From Streptomyces seoulensis (lineage in GTDB: Bacteria; Actinomycetota; Actinomycetes; Streptomycetales; Streptomycetaceae): 64,000 nt of DNA. The notes under the pieces were generated by a model, which saw only the letters and a list, made by a program, of their open reading frames with translations, did not search any database and had not been told where the DNA came from. Position 1 is the first letter of the stretch, and every line of letters starts with the position of its first letter. Made by a program: the position numbers and the translations under genes. Of this stretch, positions 30,509 to 34,725 are shown one piece after another. The DNA is taken from assembly GCF_022846655.1 (NCBI RefSeq), contig NZ_AP025667.1, positions 186,001-250,000 of the forward strand, given 5' to 3'.

Positions 30509-31111
30509 TTACCCCTTCTTCGGCGGGGCGGCCTTCGCGGCCTTCGCGGCCGCCTTCATCTCCTGCTTGTGCGCCCGCACCTTGGCCAGCGACTCCGGGC
30601 CGGTGATGTCGGCGACGGAGCGGTACGACTTCGCCTCGCCGTACGCCCCGGCGGCCTCCCGCCACCCTTCGGGTGCCACGCCGAGCTGCTTGCCGAGCAG
30701 GGCGAGGAAGATCTGCGCCTTCTGCTTGCCGAACCCCGGCAGCGCCTCCAGCCGCTTCAGCAGCTCGGGCCCGCTGCCGGCGTCCCGCCAGACCGCCTCG
30801 GCGTCACCGTCGTAGTGCTCGACCAGGTACTGGCACATGGTCTGCACCCGCTTGGCCATCGACCCCGGATAGCGGTGCACGGCCGGCTTCTCGGAGAGCA
30901 GGGCCGCGAACTCCTCCGGGTCGCGGGCGGCGATGTCGTGCGCGTCCAGGTCGTCGGTGCCCATGCGGCGCGCGATCGTCTCCGGGCCCTTGAACGCCCA
31001 CTCCATCGGGATCTGCTGGTCCAGCAGCATCCCGGTGAGCGCGGCGAGCGGGCTGCGGCCGAGCAGTGCGTCCGCGTCGGGGTCCTGGGCGAGGTGCAGG
31101 GTGACGTCCAT
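30509..31111 (-). CDS. HhH-GPD base-excision DNA repair protein
   Basis: 200 aa. Helix-hairpin-helix region LKRLEALPGFGKQKAQIFLALLGKQLG, preceded by MLLDQQIPMEWAFKGPETIARRMG as in DNA glycosylase-like HhH-GPD proteins. No Cys4 iron-sulfur loop is seen. The C-terminus is Ala/Lys-rich (MKAAAKAAKAAPPKKG), probably DNA-contacting. It is 24 bases downstream of the siderophore-interacting protein gene and may be cotranscribed from the iron-box promoter. Confidence 0.85.
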   Translation of the reverse strand: MDVTLHLAQDPDADALLGRSPLAALTGMLLDQQIPMEWAFKGPETIARRMGTDDLDAHDIAARDPEEFAALLSEKPAVHRYPGSMAKRVQTMCQYLVEHYDGDAEAVWRDAGSGPELLKRLEALPGFGKQKAQIFLALLGKQLGVAPEGWREAAGAYGEAKSYRSVADITGPESLAKVRAHKQEMKAAAKAAKAAPPKKG

Positions 31112-31135: not shown

Positions 31136-31852
31136 TCAGTCCGCCCGCCAGTACCCCAGCGCGTGCACACGCGCCTTGGGCACGTTCAGCTCCTTGCGGA
31201 CGTACGAGCCGAGGGCGCGGGTCGTCGCCGTGTCGCAGGCGATCCACACGTACGGGTGCTCGGTGCCGGACAGGACGCCGGGCAGCTCGGCCCGGACCCG
31301 CTCGACGAGGTGCCGGCCCGCCTCCCGGCGCGGTACCTCGCGGATCTCGTGCCGCTCCGGGTCGGCGCCCGAGGGGAGTCCGTCGAGGGTGCCCTCGAAC
31401 CAGACGGTCGCGGGGGCCGAACCCAGTTCCGTGAGAAGGGAGTTGATCGCGGGCAGTGAGGCGGTGTCACCGACCACGAGGACGTGCGAGGGGTCGGGTT
31501 CGGGGCGCTGGAAGCCGGTGCCCTGCACGGTCGCCTCGACGGTGTCGCCCTTCCCGGCCGCGCGGGCCCAGTCCGAGGCGCACCCCTCGTGCAGGGCGAA
31601 CTCCAGGGCGAAGGTGCCGGTCGCGGGATCGGGGTCGACGACGGTGTACGCGCGCTGGTGGGGGCGGCCGTCGTCGGAGAACCACAGGCGGACCCACATC
31701 GTGGGGTGCACCCCGGTCGCCGCGAGCAGCCCGCCGTCGGTCATCCATAGCCGCCGGTAGTCCGGGGTGACGTCCTCGGTGCCGGTCACCGTGAACGTGA
31801 AGTCCTTCGCCCGCAGCAGCTTGAGCACCGCGCCTTCCCAGCCCCGGCCCAT
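31136..31852 (-). CDS. siderophore-interacting protein (flavin ferric-siderophore reductase)
   Basis: 238 aa from ATG 31852 with GGAGAG upstream. FAD-binding motif R67-A-Y-T70, the MWVRLWFSDDGRPHQR segment, and the SIP NAD(P)H domain (HVLVVGDTASLPAINSLL; AWIACDTATTRALGSYVRKELN-type end) are present. These proteins reduce Fe(III)-siderophores in the cytoplasm to release Fe(II). It is divergent from the acylase gene across a 19-bp iron box at 31897-31915, so expression should rise when iron is scarce. Confidence 0.92.
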   Translation of the reverse strand: MGRGWEGAVLKLLRAKDFTFTVTGTEDVTPDYRRLWMTDGGLLAATGVHPTMWVRLWFSDDGRPHQRAYTVVDPDPATGTFALEFALHEGCASDWARAAGKGDTVEATVQGTGFQRPEPDPSHVLVVGDTASLPAINSLLTELGSAPATVWFEGTLDGLPSGADPERHEIREVPRREAGRHLVERVRAELPGVLSGTEHPYVWIACDTATTRALGSYVRKELNVPKARVHALGYWRAD

Positions 31853-31896
31853 CGTCTCTCCGCCCCTCGCGTACGATTCCCTCACCTGTTATGAAG

Positions 31897-31915
31897 TTAG
31901 GCAAGGCTAACCTAA
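31897..31915. promoter_or_regulatory. iron box (DmdR/IdeR-type operator)
   Basis: TTAGGCAAGGCTAACCTAA is a close match to the DtxR-family 19-bp operator TTAGGTTAGGCTAACCTAA, with two mismatches. It lies in the 82-bp gap between divergent siderophore-interacting and acylase genes, so it can control both. Confidence 0.9.
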
Positions 31916-31934
31916 AAGGAAAGGGTGCTCCAGG

Positions 31935-34112
31935 GTGACCACCGAGACCTACCGCGACGCCTGGGGCATCCCCCATCTGCGCGCCACCAGTGCCCGTGAA
32001 CTCGCCCGTGCGCAGGGGCGGGTGACCGCGATCGACCGCGCCTGGCAGGTGGAGGTCGAACGGCATCGCGCCCGGGGCACCTCGGCGTCCTTCCTCGGTG
32101 CCTCCGCCCTGTCCTGGGACGTGCTCGTCCGCCGCGCCCGCCTGGACGACACCGCGAGGCGCTGCTTCGCCGCGCTGGAGAGGCGGGACCCGGAGACGGC
32201 GGACTGGGTCCGCGCCTACGCCGACGGCGTCAACGCGGGCCTGCCCGAAGGGGCCGCGCGTACACCGGAGTTCGCGCGGGTGGGGCTCGCCCCCGGCCGC
32301 TGGGAGCCGTGGACCCCGCTCGGTGTCTGGCTCGGCACGCACATCCTGTTCGCCGGGTTCCCGGCCAAGCTGTGGCGCGAGGAGGCGATACGGCACCTGG
32401 GTCCGGAGGCGGTCGGGCTGTTCGCCACGGACGGCCCCGGCACCGCGGGCAGCAACGGCTGGCTCCTCTCCGGCGCCCGCACCACCACCGGCCTGCCCCT
32501 GATCGCCGGCGACCCGCACCGCTTCCTGGAGGAGCCCGGCGTCTACCAGCAGATCCGCCTCTCCTGCCCCGAGTTCGACGTCACCGGCCTCGCCGTCCCC
32601 GGCGTCCCGGGCATCGCCCACTTCGCCCACACGGGCACGGTCGCCTGGGCCATCACCAACGCCATGGCCGACTACCAGGACCTCTACCGCGAACGCCTCC
32701 GGCGGACGGGCGCGGGGGTCGAGGCCCTGTCCCCGGACGGCGGCTGGCACCGGGCCGCCCGCCATGTGGAGGTGGTGGAGGTCGCGGGGGAGGCGGCCGT
32801 GGAGATCGAGGTGATCGAGACGGAACGGGGGCCGGTGATAGCGGGCGGCCCGGAGGGTCTTGGGGGCCTGGAGGGCGCGGAGACGTCTTCCGCGGGGGTG
32901 CGTGGGCCGGGGGCCGATCCTGGCGACGCATCGTTTCCGGAGCCGTACGGCGAACCCGCCACAGCCGTCGCCCTGCGCTACCCGCCCCGCGTCACGGAAG
33001 ACCTCGGCTTCAGCGCCCTGCTCCCCCTCCTGAGAGCCCGCACCGTCGCCGACGTGGACCGGGCCCTGGACGCGTGGGCCGAGCCGGTCAACGTCGTGCA
33101 GGCCGCCGACACCGAGGGCGCCGTCCTCCACCGGATCGCCGGCCGCGTCCCCCTCCGCTCCCGCACCAACAGCCTCCGCCTGGCCCCCGCCTGGGAGGCG
33201 GGCCACGAATGGCAGGGCTGGCACACACCCCCGTACGCCACCCTGGAGAACGGCGTGGCCGTGATGGCGAACCAGCGCGGTCCCGCCACCCCCCTGGGCG
33301 TCGAGTTCGCCCCACCGCACCGGGCCGAGCGCATCCGCACCCTCCTCGGACAGCGCCCCACCTGGTCCGCCGCCGACCTCCCCGCCATCCACACCGACAC
33401 CCACCTGGCCTCCGCCGCCCCCCTCCTGGACCACCTCGCCGGACTCGACGCCCTCACCCCCGAAGCGACCCGCCTCCGCGAGAGCCTGCTCTCCTGGGAC
33501 CGCCACATGGACGCCGACAGCACCGGGGCGGCGACGTACGCGGCCCTGCGCACGGCGGTCGTACGCCGCCTCGCCGCCCACCCCGCCTTCGCCGCCCTCA
33601 CCGAACCCCCCGCCTATCCCGAGGTCCTCCTCCCCTGGATGTCCCTCACGGCCCGCATCGGCTTCGCCCTCGAACACCTGCTCAAGGCACAGGAGTTGTA
33701 CGGGATCGACCGCCGCGAGACCGTACGCGCGGCCCTGGAGGAGACCGCGGCCGCGCCCCCCGCCGGCCCCTGGTCCGACTCCCACCGAGTGGCCCCCTGG
33801 CGGGCGCTCCCCGAAGGCCCGTACGCGGAACCGGGCTTGGCCGGCGACCACGACTGCGTGAACTGCACGACCGCGGTCCCCGGCATCACCGACCTGGCCG
33901 CCCGAGGCCCCGCCGCCCGCTACGTCTGGGACCTCGCCGACCGCGCCGACAGCCGCTGGATCGTCCCCTTCGGCGCGGACGGCGTACCCGGCAGCCGCCA
34001 CCATCGCGACCAACTCCCCCTGTGGCTCGCGGGAGAACTCGCCCCGGTGGTCACCGACTGGACCCGGCTCACGCTCGAACACTCCGAGATCTCCGAGGAA
34101 ACACATGTCTGA
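31935..34112 (+). CDS. penicillin acylase family Ntn-hydrolase, iron-regulated
   Basis: 725 aa from GTG 31935. Penicillin acylase/PvdQ superfamily: YRDAWGIPHLRA near the N-terminus, autocatalytic junction AGSNGW with predicted nucleophile S173, then GLPLIAGDPHRF and PGVPGIAHFAHTGTVAWAITN. Self-cleavage would give alpha (1-172) and beta (173-725) chains. No signal peptide is visible, unlike most penicillin acylases. The iron box and the downstream siderophore-type acyltransferase (8-bp overlap) argue for amide hydrolysis or deacylation of a siderophore or its precursor, by analogy with PvdQ. Beta-lactam or lactone substrates remain possible. Confidence 0.88.
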   Translation: MTTETYRDAWGIPHLRATSARELARAQGRVTAIDRAWQVEVERHRARGTSASFLGASALSWDVLVRRARLDDTARRCFAALERRDPETADWVRAYADGVNAGLPEGAARTPEFARVGLAPGRWEPWTPLGVWLGTHILFAGFPAKLWREEAIRHLGPEAVGLFATDGPGTAGSNGWLLSGARTTTGLPLIAGDPHRFLEEPGVYQQIRLSCPEFDVTGLAVPGVPGIAHFAHTGTVAWAITNAMADYQDLYRERLRRTGAGVEALSPDGGWHRAARHVEVVEVAGEAAVEIEVIETERGPVIAGGPEGLGGLEGAETSSAGVRGPGADPGDASFPEPYGEPATAVALRYPPRVTEDLGFSALLPLLRARTVADVDRALDAWAEPVNVVQAADTEGAVLHRIAGRVPLRSRTNSLRLAPAWEAGHEWQGWHTPPYATLENGVAVMANQRGPATPLGVEFAPPHRAERIRTLLGQRPTWSAADLPAIHTDTHLASAAPLLDHLAGLDALTPEATRLRESLLSWDRHMDADSTGAATYAALRTAVVRRLAAHPAFAALTEPPAYPEVLLPWMSLTARIGFALEHLLKAQELYGIDRRETVRAALEETAAAPPAGPWSDSHRVAPWRALPEGPYAEPGLAGDHDCVNCTTAVPGITDLAARGPAARYVWDLADRADSRWIVPFGADGVPGSRHHRDQLPLWLAGELAPVVTDWTRLTLEHSEISEETHV

Positions 34113-34725
34113 CGCCATGACCCGACTCCCCGCCCACGAACAGCACATCCCCGACTACGGCACCGTCCGCATCCGCCCCTTGGACCCGGAGACGGACACC
34201 CCGGTGGTCCACGCCTGGGTCAGCGAGGAACGAGCCGTCTTCTGGGGCATGACCGGCCTCACGGAAGCCCAGGTCGGCGAGATCTACACCCACATGGCCA
34301 CCCTCGACACCCACCACGCCCTCCTCGTCACCAAGGACGGCGAACCGGCCGCCCTCCTCCAGACGTACGACCCCGCGGCCGACCGCGTCGGCGAGTGCTA
34401 CGAGGTCCGCCCCGGCGACATGGGCGTCCACCTCCTGCTCGCCCCCGCCGCCCCCGGCGGACACCGCCCCGGCTGGACCTCCGCCCTGCTGACCGCGATG
34501 GCCCAGTACGTCCTGCTGGTGCTGGGCAACAGCCGGATCGTGGTCGACCCGGACGTGCGCAACACCAAGGCCGTCGCCCGCTTCGAGCGCCAGGGTTTCG
34601 CCCCCGGCCCCGAGGTCGTCCTCCCCGAGATCGACCTGCCGGACGTGTACCTGCCCGAGAAGCACGCCCGGCTCGCCTTCCTCACCCGCGAGACCGCCTT
34701 CCCGGAGGCCACCGGTACGGTTTGA
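34105..34725 (+). CDS. siderophore biosynthesis-type GNAT acyltransferase (DesC/AlcB-like)
   Basis: 206 aa; ATG overlaps the end of the acylase gene by 8 bases. Sequence blocks GTVRIRPLDPETDTPVVHAWV, FWGMTGL, GDMGVHLLL and RIVVDPDVRNTKAVARFERQGF match the AlcB/IucB/RhbD/MbtK acyltransferase domain that acylates hydroxylamines or lysine side chains in hydroxamate siderophores. Cotranscribed with the acylase behind an iron box. It is probably a second DesC-like enzyme or a tailoring enzyme; no siderophore synthetase lies nearby, so it would act on a product made elsewhere. Confidence 0.88.
   Translation: MSDAMTRLPAHEQHIPDYGTVRIRPLDPETDTPVVHAWVSEERAVFWGMTGLTEAQVGEIYTHMATLDTHHALLVTKDGEPAALLQTYDPAADRVGECYEVRPGDMGVHLLLAPAAPGGHRPGWTSALLTAMAQYVLLVLGNSRIVVDPDVRNTKAVARFERQGFAPGPEVVLPEIDLPDVYLPEKHARLAFLTRETAFPEATGTV

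Follow-up and report, generated by a model that had tools for sequence, protein, structure and literature searches.

The window considered here, the whole stretch of 64,000 nucleotides analysed (Streptomyces seoulensis, contig NZ_AP025667.1, positions 186,001 to 250,000, from a genome consisting of a single 6.54-Mb contig), contains a small divergon made of the genes desJ, desG and desH. This locus is the syntenic ortholog of SCO4048-SCO4050 of S. coelicolor, described in 2025 in a study of the DmdR1 regulon (PMC12161575), in which SCO4048, SCO4049 and SCO4050 correspond to desJ, desG and desH, respectively; it is thus already known, and is an ordinary locus for Streptomyces. Its features are the following.

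31136..31885, minus strand: desJ, siderophore-interacting FAD reductase, a DesF paralogue (PF04954, 71.2 bits; PF08021, 43.1 bits), ortholog of SCO4048 by synteny
31897..31915, plus strand: iron box of the DtxR/DmdR1 type, placed within the divergent promoter (17/19 to consensus)
31935..34112, plus strand: desG, S45 penicillin-amidase-fold N-terminal nucleophile (Ntn) hydrolase without signal peptide (PF01804, 511.1 bits)
34105..34725, plus strand: desH, DesC/AlcB-type GNAT (PF13523, 152 bits)
30509..31111, minus strand: HhH-GPD DNA-repair gene equivalent to SCO4047 (TIGR03252, 325.6 bits), a synteny marker outside the system

The original prediction, made on the letters of the window, had placed an iron box between a siderophore reductase and an operon composed of a cytoplasmic-looking acylase overlapped by a DesC/AlcB-like GNAT. 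This arrangement was confirmed by the Pfam matches of all three genes, by the box at 31897-31915 and by an 8-bp overlap between desG and desH. In DesJ, the alignment with the IrtA reductase domain begins at residue 12, an ATG, and translation may start from this codon (31852) and not from the GTG at 31885.

The box sequence, TTAGGCAAGGCTAACCTAA, shares 17 of 19 bases with the 19-base consensus used for scoring, which we take to be the DtxR/DmdR iron box, and no match was retrieved in 100 shuffles of the window. The corresponding pattern TTAGGNNAGGCTNNCCTAA was found without mismatches at three sites of the genome, i.e., in the divergon, before desA (at a distance of 54 bp) and ahead of a DUF2470 gene; when up to two mismatches were allowed, six forward and six reverse matches were obtained, compared with one and none, respectively, for the reversed pattern. 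The site at the DUF2470 gene (L096:5600-5618; G000:C1:3693599-3693617) lies 13 bp upstream of the listed gene start, with a TetR-type gene adjoining. We infer an iron-dependent, DmdR1-type control of desJGH in S. seoulensis.

Gene content and order, the HhH-GPD neighbour (SCO4047, adjoining desJGH in S. coelicolor), the predicted DmdR1 control and a separate desABCD locus are all shared with the S. coelicolor desJGH (PMC12161575). The two differ downstream of desH, which is directly followed by a CopC/CopD gene in our window and by an epimerase and a dehydrogenase (SCO4051/4052) in S. coelicolor. Synteny with SCO4047-4050 was compared through the S. violaceoruber locus L067 and the published description of S. 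coelicolor: in L067 all four genes occur in the same arrangement, with 72%, 72%, 68% and 83% identity for DesJ, DesG, DesH and the HhH protein, respectively, together with an 18/19 box. The window pair also follows the published desGH rule, namely PF01804 and PF13523 genes lying no more than 1 kb apart (PMC12161575), and is accompanied by the DmdR1-type promoter box, by SCO4047-4050 synteny and by desABCD in the host.

For the S. coelicolor ortholog, PMC12161575 reports that knockout of desG lowers desferrioxamine (DFO) B about 1000-fold and knockout of desH 16-fold, with DFO E increased in both cases and DFO B restored by complementation, and that producers without desGH make only uncapped DFOs. 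The authors propose that N-hydroxy-N-succinylcadaverine (HSC) is desuccinylated by DesG and that the product is acetylated by DesH. A later paper reports that desG and desH are downregulated under salt (PMC13011467), and the operon is also mentioned in a primer (PMC12165377). In the open-licence literature, searched at the level of titles and abstract openings, no enzyme assay of DesG or DesH was found; nor did that search show in print the residue signature of the DesG pocket or the genomes with an orphan DesG, both presented below.

The original prediction also stated that no siderophore synthetase is nearby. This holds for the 64-kb window, which contains none of the four NIS (nonribosomal peptide synthetase-independent siderophore) synthetase domains of the genome. 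Elsewhere on the chromosome, a desE-, desF-, desA-, desB-, desC- and desD-like run with its own box before desA was located at C1:985-992 kb, about 0.77 Mb from the window; desE, desF, desA, desB and desD are supported by Pfam, and desC was named by its position and its 43% identity to DesH. The remaining three NIS synthetase domains are located at 4.435, 4.437 (G000:C1:4435500-4437614) and 4.948 Mb (4948223-4948912), and no site of the box pattern, with up to two mismatches, was found near them.

To evaluate conservation, 80 named Streptomyces loci were compared, being the best 80 of 582 matches and thus biased to close relatives. A box of 15-18/19 was present in 79/80 loci, the only miss (L024) being a contig edge, and the best box-like site elsewhere in each locus did not exceed 12/19. 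DesH followed DesG in 79 of the 80 (L059, again a contig edge, is the miss), the HhH gene was present in 76 and CopC/D in 71. A divergent DesJ was found by tblastn (E 1e-8) in 64 loci; at this threshold it was not found in 15 of the 79 readable ones (the sixteenth DesJ-less locus being L024), all of which carry the box. The core unit is therefore the box with desGH, and the trio of reductase, acylase and GNAT presented in the original prediction was discarded as the unit, given the 64/80 loci with a reductase.

The pair was then related to DesD, the desferrioxamine synthetase of the desABCD locus. In 199 genomes of the genus, with calls at E <1e-90 for DesG and E <1e-200 for DesD, both proteins were found in 113, DesD alone in 42, neither in 44 and DesG alone in none (Fisher 2e-20, relatedness ignored), some of the 113 DesG calls being uninspected partial matches, mostly in fragmented assemblies (e.g., G001, G046, G050, G117). 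A broad gap separates high from low DesD scores (3.2e-219 to 4.3e-98). Among the DesG calls, the least significant one, at 2.6e-98, comes from a partial match in the 79%-complete genome G001. Two DesD-less genomes scored as DesG-negative, G012 and G083, gave intermediate DesG scores (4.8e-68 and 4.8e-41) and retain fragments of desJ and desG: desJ pieces and the first part of desG in G012 (L147), and in G083 (L148) the 3' ends of both genes, which now abut, with the shared promoter region gone and a desH-like frame present. No box of at least 14/19 was found in either, and counting both remnants as DesG would give 2/115 without DesD.

Outside the genus (class calls at 1e-40 for DesG and E <1e-140 for DesD, tallies of both genus and class transcribed by hand from the search tables), 36 of 354 class genomes, i.e., 394 minus 40 genus members, had a DesG match. 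Thirty-one of these matches were in DesD genomes and, in 26 of the 31, the two genes share a contig and are less than 9 kb apart (distances by eye). In G491 (L145) desABCD, desG and desH stand in a row, and in G384 (L146) desABCD is accompanied by a desJ/desGH divergon that has a box to itself (boxes 18/19 and 16/19). DesH was present in nine of the ten non-genus loci with DesG and DesD that were read for it.

This distribution bears on the use of acylated xenosiderophores suggested by the original prediction. In this explanation, DesGH would trim and re-acylate imported acylated siderophores and the reductase would then free the iron. A reductase gene does stand beside the pair in 64/80 loci, and the enzymes look cytoplasmic. 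A scavenger should, however, benefit non-producers, and among the 199 genus genomes none has DesG without DesD, with remnants only in two; moreover, desJ is dispensable to the locus, and the S. coelicolor mutants shift endogenous DFO B versus E (PMC12161575). The xenosiderophore cycle was rejected on the DesG-DesD co-occurrence and we regard it as highly improbable, the least probable of the explanations considered.

With regard to DesG itself, the PF01804 match covers the whole domain (511.1 bits vs a cutoff of 21.3). The motif SNGW starts at residue 173, where the original prediction had put the nucleophile; S173 is Ser1 of the beta chain (b1), Ser-Asn at 173-174 occurs in 119/119 rows of an alignment of matches spanning >500 residues (L042 of the 80 named loci dropped), and in the predicted model (mean pLDDT 86.8) a beta strand starts at this residue. 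By eye, no hydrophobic segment is found at the N-terminus, in line with the cytoplasmic appearance noted earlier, and the two remaining S45 proteins of this genome each carry such a segment. R196 (b24), Y204 (b32) and H229 (b57) are invariant in the same 119 rows (113 distinct), and neither Arg-b24 nor His-b57 occurs in any of the 23 other actinobacterial S45 proteins aligned (31 loci gave 26 usable frames, including three DesG-like; L152, L171, L178, L180 and L181 were dropped).

The best structural matches of DesG (Foldseek, VIA-align second look) were glutaryl acylases, an N-acyl-homoserine-lactone acylase precursor and D-succinylase, and its best PDB sequence match was chain 35sz ("Penicillin acylase family protein"), to which the b55-60 stretch of the DesG of L172 (G228) is identical. 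Class III glutaryl-7-aminocephalosporanic acid acylase (4HSR/4HST), acting on glutaryl- and aminoadipyl-cephalosporins, shares the S45 Ntn fold and Arg-b24, Tyr-b32 and His-b57 with DesG (34% identity over 510 residues of the beta chain). Seven beta residues are published as holding cephalosporin C in simulations of 4HSR (R24, Y32, H57, H70, H178, N242, Y467) and, with pocket residues placed by alignment, DesG keeps four of them (R24, Y32, H57, N242). In a class I acylase, b57 is the glutaryl-contacting Arg (Arg255, with Ser199 as b1). The Cupriavidus D-succinylase (7EA4/7EBY), a remover of succinyl by name with D-amino-acid derivatives as substrates, shares the fold over 656 residues (24% identity) and Arg-b24.

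Escherichia coli penicillin G acylase carries Phe at b24. PvdQ, a periplasmic fatty-acyl acylase that is likewise an S45 Ntn hydrolase, has a link to the maturation of siderophores and was invoked as a precedent by the original prediction; it has Phe-b24 (named in the 4BTH title) where DesG has Arg. As a family assignment the precedent failed: in the NCBIfam PvdQ equivalog model, whose cutoff is 950 bits, DesG scored 20.1. A penicillin G acylase was also discarded, given Arg-b24 and His-b57 in place of a phenylacetyl pocket with Phe-b24. The same residues bear on the original proposal for desG, reported in PMC12161575, by which the enzyme would transfer phenylacetyl (aryl) groups onto desferrioxamines to give arylated caps. 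The S45 fold does include phenylacetyl-accepting penicillin G acylases; as judged from the aligned sequences, the conserved pocket of DesG favours desuccinylation over phenylacetyl transfer, and we consider aryl capping very unlikely. DesG is predicted to be an HSC desuccinylase.

DesH belongs to the same acyltransferase family as DesC and the N-terminal domain of DfoC, the latter protein being its best PDB sequence match. DesH and DesC fall on separate sides of a branch with 100/99 support (11 and 3 sequences), and DesH was accordingly excluded from the DesC clade. According to PMC12161575, DesC acts on N-hydroxycadaverine; DesH is predicted to be an N-hydroxycadaverine acetyltransferase.

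Taken together, we assign a probability of roughly 0.8 to desJGH being an accessory, iron-controlled desferrioxamine locus working with desABCD elsewhere on the chromosome, based on the gene layout, iron box, orthology, co-occurrence with DesD and conserved pocket residues observed here and on the DFO B loss and complementation published for the ortholog. In the proposed route, DesC would make mostly HSC which, if present alone, would be trimerised by DesD to DFO E. Cytoplasmic DesG would strip the succinyl group from HSC, regenerating N-hydroxycadaverine, and DesH would acetylate the latter to N-hydroxy-N-acetylcadaverine, which would cap the chain and yield linear DFO B; DesJ would be an optional ferrioxamine reductase. 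The deacylation/reacylation cycle of the original prediction is thus right in outline, with a different substrate: following the proposal published for the ortholog, it would be the biosynthetic monomer, converted from N-succinyl- to N-acetyl-N-hydroxycadaverine, and not a finished or foreign siderophore.

Several points, besides the partial DesG calls mentioned above, weigh against this assignment. We infer the substrate step, desuccinylation by DesG with acetylation by DesH. Three of the seven 4HSR residues differ in DesG by alignment (b70 is Asn instead of His, H178 corresponds to Asn386 and Y467 to Arg657), and the D-succinylase lacks His-b57. Loss of desJ raises DFO B in S. coelicolor (PMC12161575). 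In G228 (L172), DesG stands beside DesD and no DesH was found in the 1.5 kb after desG, within a 5.2-kb stretch. Among non-Streptomyces desGH loci, L143 and L145 have no box of at least 14/19 and L144 has one of 15/19. Finally, four genomes (G258, G316, G407 and G507; L139-L142) carry an intact DesG, 45-50% identical, in which the pocket residues are conserved; no DesH adjoins it, and these genomes gave no match to an NIS synthetase (PF04183), indicating that the use of DesG is not confined to desferrioxamine.

These four orphans are the full-length ones among the five DesD-less class genomes with a DesG match, the fifth, G368, having a weak 34% match. In G258, G316 and G407 at least two of the genes flanking DesG (MarR-GNAT, histidine kinase, amine oxidase) are the same as beside DesG in G390 or G344, two genomes in which DesH is present at the matching slot and a synthetase elsewhere in the genome. 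In the DesG tree, whose deep forks are unresolved and branches long, these three orphans and the G390/G344 copies form one clade (100/100), with G507 unplaced. Comparison of the slots suggests that DesH goes with the synthetase and that DesG can persist. The ratio of non-synonymous to synonymous substitution rates between orphan and DesH-bearing DesG was about 0.37-0.55 in all ten pairs, so that relaxed constraint is not evident, synonymous sites being a weak guide at high G+C. Separately, a second DesG (L149; G128:C2:1897381-1899450), about 62-64% identical, was observed without DesH, with a 17/19 box just upstream and a divergent isochorismatase-family gene.

A further explanation, compatible with an accessory desferrioxamine role, is that DesG is a broader N-succinyl/dicarboxyl amide hydrolase, co-opted for desferrioxamine by the majority of hosts and kept for another use in some. 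The intact orphans with their conserved pocket, the DesH found at the matching slot of the synthetase-bearing G390 and G344, and the Arg-b24 common to D-succinylase and class III glutaryl acylase all speak for it; the genomes concerned are few (4/394 of the class sample), however, and their retention of DesG could be recent, so that we hold it as a tentative option. Equally speculative is a more specific form, in which the DesG clade would comprise cytoplasmic S45 dicarboxylic-acyl (succinyl/glutaryl) hydrolases marked by Arg-b24 and His-b57, remaining intact in some actinobacteria after loss of DesH and the NIS synthetase; it would imply a second desuccinylation role outside siderophores, possibly the source of the cap-swapping cycle.

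DFO B is in clinical use as an iron chelator, and the choice between this capped product and cyclic DFO E is switched, according to the published work, by DesGH. The Arg-b24/His-b57 pocket bears directly on the desuccinylase model of this switch, and the orphan DesG genomes offer an independent place in which another DesG substrate may be sought.

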